64,000 nucleotides of DNA from Mycolicibacterium sp. MU0053 (GTDB lineage: Bacteria > Actinomycetota > Actinomycetes > Mycobacteriales > Mycobacteriaceae): the NCBI RefSeq assembly GCF_963378095.1, contig NZ_OY726397.1, positions 5,022,001 through 5,086,000 of the forward strand, read 5' to 3'. Positions 2,569 through 41,038 of the stretch are shown in pieces. Numbering within the stretch: the stretch's first letter is position 1; the number at the start of each line of letters is the position of its first letter. The position numbers were made by a program, and so were the translations under genes. The notes beneath the pieces are model-generated. The model had not been told where the DNA came from. It searched no databases and saw only the letters and a list, made by a program, of their open reading frames with translations.

Positions 2569-4085
2569 TGCTCACACCGCTGATCCGTCTTCAGCTGATC
2601 CTGTTCACGATTGCCTCGGTGATCGGAATGCCCCTGATGGCCACGCATTACCTGCAACTGCCGACCCTCCTCGGCATCGGGAGAATCACGGTCAAACTGC
2701 AGTTGCCGGCAGCCGGCGGCCTGTACCGCTTCAGCAATGTCACCTACCGAGGCGTGCAGGTCGGGCAGGTCAACTCCATCGATGTGCGGGACGGGAAATA
2801 TGTAGAAGCCACCCTCTCGCTGGACACCCGGCCCCGCATCCCTACTGATCTCATCGCGCATGTTCGCAGCATGTCGGCCGTCGGCGAACAATACGTCGAT
2901 CTGCAACCCCGCAATGAATCACCACCATATTTGGTGAACGGGTCGGTCATCCCGGCGGGGAAGACAACCATTCCGCAGCAGGTGGGGCCGATGATGAACC
3001 AGGTCAGTACGCTGCTGGACAGCATTCCGCAGGACAAGCTGAGCACGATCATCGATGAGTCGTTCGACGCCTTCAACGGATCAGACTTCGCGTTCGGCTC
3101 GCTCCTGGACTCCGTCGCCAAACTGAGCACGGACCTCAACAGCGTGGCCAACGAGGCCGCCACCCTGATCACCGATGCCAGGCCCCTGCTGGAAGGCCAA
3201 GCACAGAGCAGCGACGCGCTACGGACCTGGATCCGCAGTCTCGGCGGCGTCACCGAGCAAGTGCGGCACAACGATCAGCACGTTCGCACCCTGCTGCAGC
3301 AAGGCCCGCCCGCCGCGGACGAGGTATCCCGATTGCTGGCCGACGTGCGCCCGACGCTGCCTGTGCTCCTGGCGAACCTGACCACCGTCGGCCAGGTTGC
3401 CGTGACATACAACGCGTCACTCGAGCAGCTACTGGTGCTCCTTCCTCCCAATGTGGCTGCGGTACAGGGCGTTGCACCCAACAAGAACGCCACCGGAATC
3501 GCCCTGGGAGATTTCGCCATGACGATGTCCGATCCGCCCCCGTGTACGGTCGGTTTCCTACCCCCGTCATCATGGCGATCACCGCAGGACCAATCGGTGA
3601 TCGATACGCCCGACGGGATCTACTGCAAGCTCCCGCACGACTCCCCGATCGCAGTCCGCGGGGCGCGCAACTACCCGTGCATGGAGCACCCCGGTAAACG
3701 TGCCCCGACGGTGGAACTGTGCAACAGTCCGGAGGGCTTCATGCCGCTGGCCCAACGGCAGCACATACTCGGCCCCTACCCGGTCGACCCGAATCTCCTC
3801 GGCCAAGGCGTACCACCGGACAGCAGGGCGGACCCGGACGAGGGCATCTTCGGCCCGTTGGAAGGGACCCCGCGGCCGGCGGACACCGGACCTCCTGCAC
3901 CACTGCCACCACCCGCGGCGCCCGCGGGCTACGACGATTCGGCGCCGGTCAATGTACAGACAGCGCAATACAATCCACATACCGGGGCATACATGGCCGA
4001 TGACGGCCGCATCTACTCCCAGTCGAATCTCGCCGAGTCGTCGACGAGCGGCGGTTGGACAGACCTGGTGATGCCGAACCCCTGA
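2568..4085 (+). CDS. mceF: MceF, MCE-family protein of a lipid importer
   Basis: A 505-residue protein with one N-terminal membrane segment (about residues 8-27), followed by an MCE domain containing the MceF-typical stretch GIGRITVKLQLP...GLYRFSNVTYRGVQVGQV. The middle is helical. The C-terminal half contains several cysteines and a Pro-rich segment, as in other MceF proteins. It is the last mce gene: 69 bp separate it from the next start, and the following genes are enzymes. The operon therefore ends in catabolic genes rather than in the usual mce-associated (Mas) proteins, which suggests that the imported lipid is processed by the island to the right. That link is inference. Confidence 0.9.
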   Translation: MLTPLIRLQLILFTIASVIGMPLMATHYLQLPTLLGIGRITVKLQLPAAGGLYRFSNVTYRGVQVGQVNSIDVRDGKYVEATLSLDTRPRIPTDLIAHVRSMSAVGEQYVDLQPRNESPPYLVNGSVIPAGKTTIPQQVGPMMNQVSTLLDSIPQDKLSTIIDESFDAFNGSDFAFGSLLDSVAKLSTDLNSVANEAATLITDARPLLEGQAQSSDALRTWIRSLGGVTEQVRHNDQHVRTLLQQGPPAADEVSRLLADVRPTLPVLLANLTTVGQVAVTYNASLEQLLVLLPPNVAAVQGVAPNKNATGIALGDFAMTMSDPPPCTVGFLPPSSWRSPQDQSVIDTPDGIYCKLPHDSPIAVRGARNYPCMEHPGKRAPTVELCNSPEGFMPLAQRQHILGPYPVDPNLLGQGVPPDSRADPDEGIFGPLEGTPRPADTGPPAPLPPPAAPAGYDDSAPVNVQTAQYNPHTGAYMADDGRIYSQSNLAESSTSGGWTDLVMPNP

Positions 4086-37172: not shown

Positions 37173-37320
37173 CCCTAGGCGCTAAGACGCGCCCTTGTGC
37201 CACACCGAAGGGATCAGCGGGGGTTTCGTTCCTGCATCTCGTGGCAATACTGCAGCGCACGCACCACGCAAGTAGCGACTCGCAGCAGTTGCGGGTGCGG
37301 CACCGACGAAAGGATCAGCC

Positions 37321-37509
37321 ATGGCACTCGACGACGACGACATCACCACCACCCCGGGCGAAGGCGGCGGCGAAGGCACCGCTGACGGCGGCTCCAACCC
37401 CGAAGGCCACGACGGCGGCGCCGACGGTTCCGCGGATACGGGCGAGGGCACCGCCGACGGCGGTTCCAACCCCGAGGGCCAAGACGGCGGCGCCGACGGG
37501 ACCGCCTGA
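37321..37509 (+). CDS. 62-residue Asp/Gly-rich repeat peptide, possible substrate of the next gene
   Basis: The peptide has an acidic start (ALDDDDITTTPGE) and then two copies of a 24-residue unit, GEGTADGGSNPEG(H/Q)DGGADG(S/T)A, ending exactly after the second copy. It has no Cys, no signal peptide and no hydrophobic segment. GAAAGGA precedes ATG 37321, and the cupin gene starts 10 bp after the stop. Its codons differ between the repeats mostly at silent positions, so the protein repeat is under selection. I recall similar short mycobacterial proteins annotated as BatC, without known function. A substrate or precursor peptide for the downstream JmjC-type oxygenase is the most attractive reading; an intrinsically disordered metal- or protein-binding peptide is the alternative. 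Confidence 0.68.
   Translation: MALDDDDITTTPGEGGGEGTADGGSNPEGHDGGADGSADTGEGTADGGSNPEGQDGGADGTA
37369..37506 (+). repeat. 72-bp coding tandem repeat (1.9 copies) in the Asp/Gly-rich peptide gene
   Basis: Units 37369-37440 and 37441-37506 have a 24-codon period. Over the 22 shared codons I count five silent changes and two replacements (His30/Gln54 and Ser37/Thr61). Silent change with a retained peptide argues against a recent slippage product. Confidence 0.8.
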
Positions 37510-37519
37510 CCGCTTCGCG

Positions 37520-38731
37520 ATGCTGAGCCGCTGCATCGCCACCGACGCGCACACTTTCGCCGCCGAGCACTGGGATCGCAAGCCACTGCTCAGTAGGGCC
37601 AGTGAGCTGCCCCGCGACTTCGGCGACCTGCTCTCCTCCGAGGCGGTCGACGAGTTGATCGCCGAGCGCGGAGTGCGCGCGCCGTTTCTCCGCCTGGCCA
37701 AGGACGGCGACGTGCTGGCCCGGGATTGCTATCTCGGGTCGGCCGGCTTCGGCGCGGAGATCGCCGACCAGGTGGACTCGGCCAAAGTGCTCGCCCAGTT
37801 CGCCGGCGGCGCAACGATAGTGCTGCAAGGCCTGCACCGGTTGTGGCCACCGCTGATCGAATTCGTCCGGCGCGCCGTCGACGATCTGGGCCATCCGGTG
37901 CAGGCAAACGCCTACATCACGCCGCCGAGCAGCCGCGGGTTCGATCCGCACTACGACGTCCACGACGTGTTCGTGCTGCAGACAGCCGGGGAGAAGCGCT
38001 GGATCGTGCACGAGCCGGTGCACGCCCACCCCCTGCCGTCCCAGCCGTGGACCCGGCACCGAGCGGCGATCGAGCAGCGGGTCACCGACGAACCGGTGAT
38101 CGACACGGTGCTCGCTGCCGGCGATGCGCTGTATCTGCCGCGGGGCTGGGTGCATTCCGCCCTGGCCCTGCAGAGCACGTCGATCCATCTCACCCTCGGG
38201 GTTTCGGCGGTGACCCGCCTCGATGTCATCCAGGCGGTCATCGATCAACTCGTCAACGATGCCGGGTTCCGGGAGTCGTTGCCGATGGGCGCCGACCCCA
38301 CCGACCCGGATGAGACACTCGCGACGGTGACGAAAGTGATGGCGGAGATGGTCGATACCCTGCGCGACGAGACGACCGCGCTCAGCGCCGGCGCCGCGGC
38401 GCGGTTGACCCAACGGCACGCCGAGCGGACCCGTCCGGCCCCGGTCCGCCCGCTGGCCTCGCTCGCGGCCGCACGGACTGCCGCCCGCACGCCGGTGCAG
38501 TGGCGCCATGGGCTTGTCGCAGCTCTTGAAAACCGCGGCGAACGGCTCGCCTTGCGGCTACCGGACCGCGTCATCACGTTTCCGGTCTCGTGCGCGGAGG
38601 CCCTCCGGGCGCTGCACCGCGGCCTTGTCGCCGACGCCGCCACGTTGCCCGGTCTCGACCGAGCCGACGCGACGGTATTGCTGCGCCGACTGCTGCGCGA
38701 GGCTGTCGTGGTGCCGGTGGCGCACGAATGA
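37520..38731 (+). CDS. JmjC-type cupin oxygenase (ROXA/YcfD-like)
   Basis: A 403-residue protein. HWDRKPLL near the N-terminus opens a JmjC/cupin-8 domain. Likely Fe(II) ligands are His144 and Asp146 (FDPHYDVHDVF) and His212 (LPRGWVHSAL). TAGEKRW supplies the usual 2-oxoglutarate-contact Lys. A helical dimerisation region and a winged-helix-like C-terminal part follow. This is the layout of bacterial ribosomal oxygenases such as YcfD, which hydroxylate a residue in a protein. The start is ATG 37520; the frame is open upstream but overlaps the repeat peptide gene. It is coupled to the next gene by a 4-bp overlap. Its target may be ribosomal or the Asp/Gly peptide encoded just before it. Confidence 0.8.
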   Translation: MLSRCIATDAHTFAAEHWDRKPLLSRASELPRDFGDLLSSEAVDELIAERGVRAPFLRLAKDGDVLARDCYLGSAGFGAEIADQVDSAKVLAQFAGGATIVLQGLHRLWPPLIEFVRRAVDDLGHPVQANAYITPPSSRGFDPHYDVHDVFVLQTAGEKRWIVHEPVHAHPLPSQPWTRHRAAIEQRVTDEPVIDTVLAAGDALYLPRGWVHSALALQSTSIHLTLGVSAVTRLDVIQAVIDQLVNDAGFRESLPMGADPTDPDETLATVTKVMAEMVDTLRDETTALSAGAAARLTQRHAERTRPAPVRPLASLAAARTAARTPVQWRHGLVAALENRGERLALRLPDRVITFPVSCAEALRALHRGLVADAATLPGLDRADATVLLRRLLREAVVVPVAHE

Positions 38732-39615
38732 CGGCTGCCCGGCGGCGGCCGTGCAGCGATCAGTCGCTGGCCCGCAACGACCCGATGTACGGCACGGCGT
38801 CGGCAGGGCATGCCTGGATGTTGCTGGAATTGTCCGGCGGGTGGGGACATTCGGCGTTCCTCCAGTCGCCGTCGGTGATCGACCCCGAGCTGGGCCGCGC
38901 CATCGTGCGGCGAGCCGAGAAGGCCGGCATGCGGATCGCGGCGATACGCCGTCATGGCCGGCGGTCGGCCCCGCCGCTATGGCGCTGGTTCATCGCGCAC
39001 TCCGATGTCGGCAGCGAGGCTATGTACCGCGGCGAGGTGAACGATCCACGCGACTACCTGGAGCTGGCCCTCGACGGATCCGACGGCACGCGGTCCGCCG
39101 AGCCGCTGGTCGCCATCTGCGCCCACGGCAAACACGATCAATGCTGCGCGGTCCGCGGTCGTGGCGCCACCGCGGCAATCGCGGCGGATTATCCCCAAAT
39201 CACCTGGGAATGTTCACACTTGGGCGGTGATCGCTTCGCCGCCACCATGCTGATACTGCCGGAAGGCTTATGTTACGGGCGCGTCGACACCACCGATTCG
39301 GCTCGTCTGGTGCGGCTGTATTTCGACGGCCGGCTGGACAACGACTTCCTCCGCGGACGCACTTCGCTGCCGCATCCGGCGCAGGCCGCCCAATATTTCG
39401 TCCGCGAAGCCCATGGCGGAGACCGTATCTCGAGCCTGGCCCCGCTGGAGGTCAAGCGCGGCGAAGGACAGGTACGAGTGCTGCTGCGCGGCGAGTCGGG
39501 TCCCATCGAAGTGGTCGTGAACGAGGAGCACTCCGAACCGCTGTTGTCCCAGTGCGATGCCAAGCATCCGGGCCGGGTGCGGGTCTATACCCTGGCTTCG
39601 ATCTCCGCGCCGTAG
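38728..39615 (+). CDS. Sucrase/ferredoxin-like [2Fe-2S] protein (Apd1-type thioredoxin-fold)
   Basis: A 295-residue protein with the family motifs CAHGKHDQCC (Cys131 to Cys140) and ECSHLGGDRFAAT (Cys162, His164, Asp168). In yeast Apd1 the cluster is held by C-x8-C and H-x3-H. Here C-x8-C is kept, the first His is His164, and the second His position is Asp168, with Cys162 close by. The start overlaps the cupin stop by 4 bp (ATGA). It may supply or sense electrons for the cupin enzyme, although JmjC enzymes normally need only 2-oxoglutarate; a role in redox repair of the iron centre is possible. Confidence 0.8.
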   Translation: MTAARRRPCSDQSLARNDPMYGTASAGHAWMLLELSGGWGHSAFLQSPSVIDPELGRAIVRRAEKAGMRIAAIRRHGRRSAPPLWRWFIAHSDVGSEAMYRGEVNDPRDYLELALDGSDGTRSAEPLVAICAHGKHDQCCAVRGRGATAAIAADYPQITWECSHLGGDRFAATMLILPEGLCYGRVDTTDSARLVRLYFDGRLDNDFLRGRTSLPHPAQAAQYFVREAHGGDRISSLAPLEVKRGEGQVRVLLRGESGPIEVVVNEEHSEPLLSQCDAKHPGRVRVYTLASISAP

Positions 39616-40660: not shown

Positions 40661-41038
40661 CTAGAACTGGTTGCAGGTGTCCAGCACGGTCTTCATGGCC
40701 GCGATCTTCGCCTGGCCCTCGGGCGAGTTCTTGCGTTCCTGCCATTCCGCGCGCTTCTCGGGGCTGATGTCGGCCTTCTTCGCGCGCATCTCCGCAGCCT
40801 TGGCGTGGCGTTCCTCGACGGAGAGGTTCAGCACCTTCTCGAACTTGGCCATGCGCTCCGGCTTGGCAGCGAGATCCGGGGCGTGCTGCTGCGCGGCCGC
40901 CTGGAACTGGGTGTAGCTGCAGGTGGTATCCAGCAGCCCGCCATGCGGTTGAGCCGCTGCGGCGCCGGCGCCGAACAGCAAGCCTGCGGTGGCCAATCCA
41001 GCGACGGTCGCAATCAGTGGGGTCCGGGTGACAGCCAA
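40661..41038 (-). CDS. Hemophore-related secreted protein (Rv0203-like)
   Basis: A 125-residue protein with a signal peptide (about residues 1-29, GAGAAAAQ) and a mature all-helical domain holding two cysteines (DTTCSYTQFQAAAQQHAP near the start, DTCNQF at the C-terminus) that probably form a disulfide. SYTQ and the YAA-like helix resemble the mycobacterial hemophore family, whose member Rv0203 binds heme outside the cell. The mature part is rich in Lys and Glu. It stands alone, with about 200 bp of gap upstream and 137 bp downstream. Heme binding is inferred from family resemblance only. Confidence 0.8.
   Translation of the reverse strand: MAVTRTPLIATVAGLATAGLLFGAGAAAAQPHGGLLDTTCSYTQFQAAAQQHAPDLAAKPERMAKFEKVLNLSVEERHAKAAEMRAKKADISPEKRAEWQERKNSPEGQAKIAAMKTVLDTCNQF

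Follow-up and report, generated by a model that had tools for sequence, protein, structure and literature searches.

An aspartate-rich repeat peptide, a JmjC-type cupin and a Suc_Fer-like protein form a gene triad that looks like a peptide-modification system in many actinobacteria

Introduction

Which role could a 62-amino acid, Asp-rich repeat peptide have when its gene lies directly upstream of genes for a JmjC-type cupin and a Suc_Fer-like protein? This question is raised by a locus of Mycolicibacterium sp. MU0053, located in a 64,000-nucleotide stretch (contig NZ_OY726397.1, positions 5,022,001 to 5,086,000) that we refer to as the window and in which all coordinates are given. Three genes follow each other on the forward strand: the open reading frame (ORF) for the peptide (37321-37509), the cupin gene (37520-38731, 403 amino acids) and the Suc_Fer gene (38728-39615, 295 amino acids). 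The first two are separated by 10 bp and the last two overlap by 4 bp, positions and distances that an original prediction, made from the DNA sequence, had given exactly to the base. This prediction had further suggested that the cupin could hydroxylate the repeats of the peptide in series.

The triad looks like a peptide-modification system of an undescribed kind that is present in many actinobacteria; our searches of the open-access literature gave no description of such an Asp-repeat triad. We favour the reading, with a probability of roughly 55%, that it is a three-gene unit of the RiPP (ribosomally synthesised and post-translationally modified peptide) kind, whose oxygenase would hydroxylate Asp residues in series.

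Results

The three genes occur together

Named genome contigs were scanned for relatives of the cupin, and the best 80 of 154 stretches were used. They come from Mycobacterium (in the wide sense), Gordonia, Williamsia, Antrihabitans, Dietzia, Rhodococcus, Rhodococcoides, Agreia, Herbiconiux and Agromyces. A leader and at least the first part of the repeats were found upstream of the cupin in all 80 relatives, and a Suc_Fer gene downstream in 79 of them, the exception being Rhodococcus rhodnii (locus L065, for which 1.3 kb of downstream DNA was examined). A few loci are damaged: the peptides of L002 and L020 are frame-shifted within the repeats, that of L036 is masked by Ns and the cupin of genome G122 is split. 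Lack of conservation of the small ORF beside homologous cupins, the outcome that would have spoken against the original prediction, did not arise, and peptide ORFs with other cores also accompany far more divergent cupins (see below).

Among 148 genomes of the same genus, a strong peptide match (E no higher than 1e-11), a close cupin (more than 380 bits) and Suc_Fer (E 1e-10) coincide in the identical 53 genomes without exception; as these genomes are akin, a chance calculation for this co-occurrence overstates the case. The remaining 95 genomes have no strong peptide match, close cupin or Suc_Fer; weak peptide-like matches (E 0.006 or worse) are seen in 17 of them, a distant cupin (109 bits or fewer) in 24 and a Suc_Fer in none. 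In 20 same-genus regions with distant cupins (30-41% identity), no Suc_Fer was present and no such peptide was recognised by eye in the ORF lists, which limits the link with the peptide to one part of the PF08007 family. The partnership of the three genes is well supported. With regard to mobile elements, the peptide had no match in plasmid and phage records, a weak negative result since the low-complexity filter of BLAST was switched on.

The repeat units of the peptide are under purifying selection

The precursor-like peptide has no match in Pfam or NCBIfam at an E-value of 1, and its profile matches a single place in the genome of the window. It starts with the leader MALDDDDITT (37321-37350), and repeat comparison and the unit pattern define two repeat units, EGTADGGSNPEGHDGGADGSA (37372-37434) and EGTADGGSNPEGQDGGADGTA (37444-37506), the second of which carries a Gln in place of a His. 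The copies are offset by 72 nt (24 codons), with 89% identity along 65 nt, and the 21-codon unit shows six silent and two replacement changes between them. With all loci included, 200 pairs of units within the same peptide give a ratio of replacement to silent differences (pN/pS) of 0.10, and 3000 sampled pairs of units from different loci give 0.12. Third codon positions differ among units in 45% of cases, first and second positions in 5-8%. Strong purifying selection acts on the repeat units, in line with the earlier claim that the mostly silent repeat differences indicate a selected peptide sequence.

A comparison of repeat numbers across genomes, which the original prediction had proposed as a check, was run on 81 peptides including that of the window. 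By pattern, 61 have three units and 17 have two, among them the window and L020; one unit was scored in L056 (three by eye) and none in L002 and L036. All 218 scored units are 21 residues long. In the group of the window, 216 of the 218 units retain Asn 9 and 208 retain His 13, counts that are free of the unit pattern fully for Asn 9 and partly for His 13. The pattern itself demands Asp at positions 14 and 18 and either Asp or Tyr at position 5, hence the constancy of Asp says little.

Divergent cupins are preceded by peptides with a common leader and different cores

A cupin profile was run on 396 Actinomycetota genomes, 58 of which had matches at E 1e-25. These yielded 36 regions from 33 genomes, two of the regions being known positives beforehand; eight genomes were already covered, four were added later and 13 were left out (G231, in which Suc_Fer alone was seen, G284, G321, G348, G379, G399, G442, G468, G477, G486, G503, G511 and G525). 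An acidic repeat peptide precedes the cupin in 26 of the 36 regions: four are of the window-like GADG type, 20 have cores such as TDGDATDGTDGDA and two have other repeats. The other ten regions carry a GRSDGND peptide (two) or none or nothing clear (eight). Suc_Fer is present in 21 of the 36 regions, all 21 of which also have the peptide, and lies within 116 bases of the cupin in 20 of them; the 635-base gap in L178 was measured from half a cupin. In four further loci picked for the presence of cupin and Suc_Fer, the peptide was found each time.

The divergent peptides have a leader of roughly the form L-[ST]-D-E-D-I-x-T-[VT], for example LSDEDVQAV, LTDEDIKTT and VEDEDIVTT, which corresponds to LDDDDITT in the window and is absent from two GADG-type peptides (L145 and L146). 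As one would look for in RiPP precursors, the leader is conserved and the core variable. In 18 of 29 loci, an ORF with this leader and an Asp-rich sequence ends just before the cupin, compared to 0 of 1277 control ORF groups from the same DNA, using a pattern that was composed post hoc with the peptides already seen.

One might argue that the peptide is a chance low-complexity ORF next to an unrelated oxygenase, as Gly/Asp/Ala-rich ORFs are common in DNA rich in G+C. The exact co-occurrence, the pN/pS values of 0.10-0.12, the conserved position and the leader, including the post hoc leader test, rule this out for practical purposes, and we consider its probability to be negligible.

In a cupin tree with 66 rows, the peptide types cluster, with nine label changes compared to 33.7 for shuffled labels, and the GRSDGND rows group in a single supported clade. 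Support is weak at the deepest forks (44/88), the row of L030 is a fragment error and the cupins of L177 and L178 have half length; the membership of L143 and L144 in alignment A2 inflates their HMM (hidden Markov model) scores. In locus L156, which has no adjacent Suc_Fer, a 155-amino acid precursor contains some six repeats resembling SADGTDQGVEGGTYGPRDA and has a core richer than in the rest of the family.

Among 29 curated cores, Asp is the sole residue that exceeds 10% in every one (12-37% of the sequence after residue 10), a count that is partly circular, as the peptide filter required more than 12% Asp and some peptides were included after visual inspection. Of these cores, 17 have no His, 16 no Asn and one no Gly. 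The composition of the cores also bears on the idea that the cupin makes a product other than hydroxy-Asp, such as a cross-link between repeats or a macrocycle. 2-oxoglutarate (2OG) oxygenases are chemically varied, and an alpha-ketoglutarate-dependent dioxygenase reportedly catalyses macrocyclisation in RiPPs, which we count in favour of such a product. Against it, the Asp-rich cores are devoid of aromatic, Cys and Lys residues, which are often used for cross-links, and we regard a product of this type as quite improbable.

The cupin is a predicted 2OG oxygenase with cassette-typical basic residues

The cupin matches PF08007 (JmjC_2) with 97.2 bits against a cut-off of 22, and its AlphaFold2 model has a mean pLDDT (predicted local distance difference test) of 93. 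According to Foldseek, the closest structures are NO66, followed by MINA53 and YcfD (best E 1.7e-24). Residues H144, D146, H212, K159 and N130 do not vary among 43 cupins from three-gene cassettes and 22 other cupins. We take H144, D146 and H212 to be the HxD...H iron triad of the family and K159 to be its 2OG-binding Lys. Judged by Pfam, by these residues and by the modelled fold, the cupin is a JmjC Fe(II)/2OG oxygenase, for which turnover is predicted.

Six residues are typical of the 43 cassette cupins: R53 (41), H106 (37), H125 (40), R329 (41), R390 (41) and R393 (41). In the model, R390 and R393 sit in the last helix of a C-terminal winged-helix-like part (residues 326-399; 38495-38716), to which R329 also belongs, and the acidic leader could bind at this helix. 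The modelled order of secondary structures in this part, strand-strand-strand-helix...helix, fits that of a RiPP recognition element (RRE). An hhalign comparison with 14 PqqD sequences in local mode gave a probability of 11% for the C-terminal part, compared to 1-4% when three further parts of the cupin were used, and did not confirm an RRE.

The relationship with NO66 and MINA53, both of which are His hydroxylases, raises the alternative that the peptide is indeed the substrate, but that oxidation takes place on the His of GHDGG or on the Asn of GGSNP and that Asp merely makes the peptide acidic. The near constancy of His 13 and Asn 9 in the group of the window would agree with this. Conversely, more than half of the curated cores lack His, as do more than half lack Asn, and the His is replaced by Gln in the second unit of the window and by Ala in the last units of the Dietzia peptides. 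We think that a His or Asn site is unlikely, while ranking it first among the alternatives considered here.

The same fold, that of the ribosomal oxygenases, could also mean that the cupin acts on ribosomal proteins and that the unmodified peptide is its metal- or enzyme-binding partner, for instance a chaperone, an iron buffer or a regulator, and the lack of an adjoining gene for a leader protease or an exporter is in agreement with this. For a mere partner, it would be unexpected that the leader is kept while the core swaps between lineages and the repeat number varies, and, unlike ribosomal proteins, the unit is missing from 95 of the 148 genomes of the genus. We rate a partner role as rather improbable, below a His or Asn site and above a cross-linked product.

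The Suc_Fer protein has an altered motif

The third protein of the unit matches PF06999 (Suc_Fer-like) with 56.5 bits against a cut-off of 34.9, and its model had no match with an E-value below 0.001 among PDB structures. Motif comparison places its probable cluster-ligand region, C-x-H-G-x-H-D-x-C-C ... C-S-H-x-G-G-D-R-F, at 39118-39237. In a 119-genome sample, 33 Suc_Fer places, of which 19 adjoin a cassette cupin, were detected across 28 genomes, and the motif was readable in 28 of 30 fetched loci. H-x-G-G-D is found in the protein of the window and in 18 of the 19 cassette proteins, with a Cys in the remaining one, as opposed to H-x-G-G-H in eight of the nine readable non-cassette proteins. 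The ninth, of the Asp type, comes from G257, which has its own peptide and cupin at a distance of 22 kb. In addition, the Arg of the first motif is replaced by His in 18 of the 19 cassette proteins. This linked change suggests that Suc_Fer evolved together with the unit and is a specialised member of it, in which a probable ligand has been altered in a family-specific manner.

In the G257 locus (L177/L224), the peptide that precedes the cupin contains two exact copies of PTEDDENLDAPGEHSQDTGDE.

Upstream region and neighbouring genes

A Shine-Dalgarno-like GAAAGGA (37308-37314) lies upstream of the peptide gene, and similar stretches precede the start codon in many relatives. Further upstream is an imperfect SigF-like promoter, GTTT-N15-TGGCAA (37223-37247); the SigF consensus is given as GTTT-N14-19-GGGTA in a portion of PMC4694148. 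The strict pattern GKTT-N15-17-GGGYA, to which the site of the window does not conform, occurs upstream of 28 of 50 mycobacterial loci against a mean of 0.26 after mononucleotide shuffling, a count to be read with the relatedness of the loci and the choice of the pattern after inspection in mind. In other genera, a SigF-like pattern was found in one of 31 upstream regions, and two other sigma patterns had no match in the same upstream regions. A stricter pattern searched genome-wide in the genome of the window gave 15 matches compared to 11 for the backward control, the site of the window not being among them. SigF control of the unit is no more than a lead.

On the opposite strand, the unit is preceded by a gene for a molybdopterin/cytochrome b561 protein and followed by one for an aldo/keto reductase, so that the original prediction was right in stating that no exporter or protease is adjacent. 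Due to this absence, the extracellular role that it had considered for the peptide is without support. Four neighbour clusters were present in three or more loci out of 41; three consist of frames that overlap the peptide and the fourth (L160, L163 and L169) is unassigned. Of the six clusters that span at least three genera, the clear ones are the unit's own genes and overlapping frames. Also in the window, a gene at 40661-41038 on the reverse strand codes for a 125-amino acid protein that has two Cys residues and a signal-like start; this protein has no Pfam match at 0.001 and presumably resembles mycobacterial haem-binding proteins.

Other loci that combine JmjC proteins with small peptides

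In Streptomyces loci L144 (4797-6146), L193 (2723-4979), L160 and L163, peptides of 45-48 amino acids ending in GRSDGND precede cupins of the family, with a longer start possible for the L160 peptide. An aldo/keto reductase gene follows the cupin in L144 and L193, and S. avidinii and S. albidoflavus show the order GRSDGND peptide, cupin, aldo/keto reductase. No adjacent Suc_Fer was found in the three loci searched for it (L144, L160 and L163). This branch (L144, L160, L163 and L193) was kept apart from the main family and possibly represents a second, separate RiPP-like type. In Streptomyces clavuligerus, a 48-amino acid peptide with a leader-like SLEPDEIEVI and two IADxDPxDP repeats precedes the cupin. 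An ORF of Streptantibioticus cattleyicolor (L191) that ends in SISLESIDVEVENQSFGMITASTGCFSNIGGPSC, which we assume to be like a lanthipeptide or thiopeptide precursor, lies about 300 bases upstream of a JmjC cupin match at 3001. Finally, a plasmid of Paraburkholderia megapolitana (L189, 503-12603) codes for a PF08007 JmjC protein between two YcaO-TfuA-ThiF gene sets, together with MFS (major facilitator superfamily) transporters and small ORFs.

Discussion

We propose that the first gene would code for a small acidic precursor, in which a conserved leader (MALDDDDITT here) is followed by Asp-rich repeats. The JmjC-type Fe(II)/2OG oxygenase encoded by the second gene would grip the acidic leader, probably by its basic C-terminal winged-helix-like part, and oxidise the repeats one after another, most likely by hydroxylation at the beta carbon of Asp. 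The third gene product, a Suc_Fer-type [2Fe-2S] protein, would probably be the redox partner of the oxygenase or a keeper of reduced iron. The product could be a poly-hydroxyaspartyl peptide and a possible metal binder, which would stay inside the cell unless it is exported by the products of unlinked genes. We infer the role of the peptide as substrate, the Asp site, the binding of the leader, the role of Suc_Fer and the function of the product from sequence comparisons and models.

A short precursor gene beside a gene for a modifying enzyme is what one would look for in a RiPP locus, and it was found in all 80 relatives and in 26 of the 36 divergent regions. Asp appears to be the likeliest site, and modification of Asp in series fits best because Asp alone exceeds 10% in every curated core, a step that leans on the partly circular count described above. 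Several further observations weigh against the hydroxylation of Asp in such a unit. The nearest solved enzymes, NO66 and MINA53, act on His; in the group of the window, the constancy of His 13 and Asn 9 almost equals that of Asp; and Ala and Thr are also present in all 29 cores, albeit at lower levels (down to 6% and 2%). The peptide occurs without an adjacent Suc_Fer in five of 15 loci (L156, L157, L166, L177 and L179), and L147, inside the clade of the window, has neither a clear repeat peptide nor Suc_Fer. Genes for leader removal or export neither adjoin the unit in the window nor recur beside it in the relatives. Some RiPPs rely on unlinked genes for these steps.

The original interpretation holds with regard to a conserved peptide beside the cupins, whereas it had overlooked the leader, the family of cores and the specialisation of Suc_Fer. 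A bolder version would be an old and widespread actinobacterial RiPP class with poly(beta-hydroxyaspartyl) repeats, a leader-reading JmjC oxygenase and a re-ligated [2Fe-2S] protein, the peptides being produced inside the cell and serving as metal-binding polymers in stationary phase or under stress, with SigF control in mycobacteria. We put this forward tentatively and consider it doubtful as a whole. If our favoured reading is true, one simple enzyme would work serially along a ribosomal peptide with many near-identical sites, in lineages that range from mycobacteria to deep Actinomycetota, and JmjC enzymes of the ribosomal oxygenase type would be connected with peptide natural products. A role would be found for the orphan Suc_Fer subfamily whose ligand motif is changed, and the high conservation of the unit would imply that it is important to the cell.

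How does the unit compare with known systems? With NO66, MINA53 and YcfD, the cassette cupin has in common the fold, the Fe/2OG residues and the C-terminal winged-helix-like part. The targets of these three enzymes are ribosomal His or Arg residues according to PDB titles, whereas the cassette cupin is encoded together with a repeat peptide and Suc_Fer and has R53, H106, H125, R329, R390 and R393 as typical residues. Turning to Suc_Fer, the two His ligands of the yeast protein Apd1, a member of the same Pfam family (PF06999), lie in H-x-G-G-H. The Suc_Fer protein of the window has the C...C-C...H-x-G-G motif in common with Apd1, but like 18 of the 19 cassette members it has H-x-G-G-D in place of H-x-G-G-H; for Apd1, a 2Cys2His pocket is described in a section of PMC11126956.

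Parallels to the proposed process also come from RiPP research. In a survey, RRE-like folds fused to PF08007 JmjC domains are reported, with bacterial relatives in RiPP-like contexts (PMC12710340), and PbsQ and BpmG are presented as cupin/JmjC enzymes of biphenomycin-type clusters in parts of PMC12257519. What these contexts and our unit have in common is a cupin/JmjC enzyme that acts, or is proposed to act, on a ribosomal precursor. The RiPP clusters, as far as these sources describe them, carry MNIO (multinuclear non-haem iron-dependent oxidative enzyme), radical SAM (S-adenosylmethionine), arginase or protease genes, in contrast to the present unit with its three genes, Asp-rich repeat core and Suc_Fer protein. 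In nitrilobacillins, beta-hydroxylated Asp is made by an MNIO, according to an extract of PMC13060819. The likeness to our unit is that, as proposed here, a ribosomal peptide would end up with hydroxy-Asp, whereas the enzyme families are unrelated and the single sites described there contrast with the long repeats that the cassette cupin would modify.

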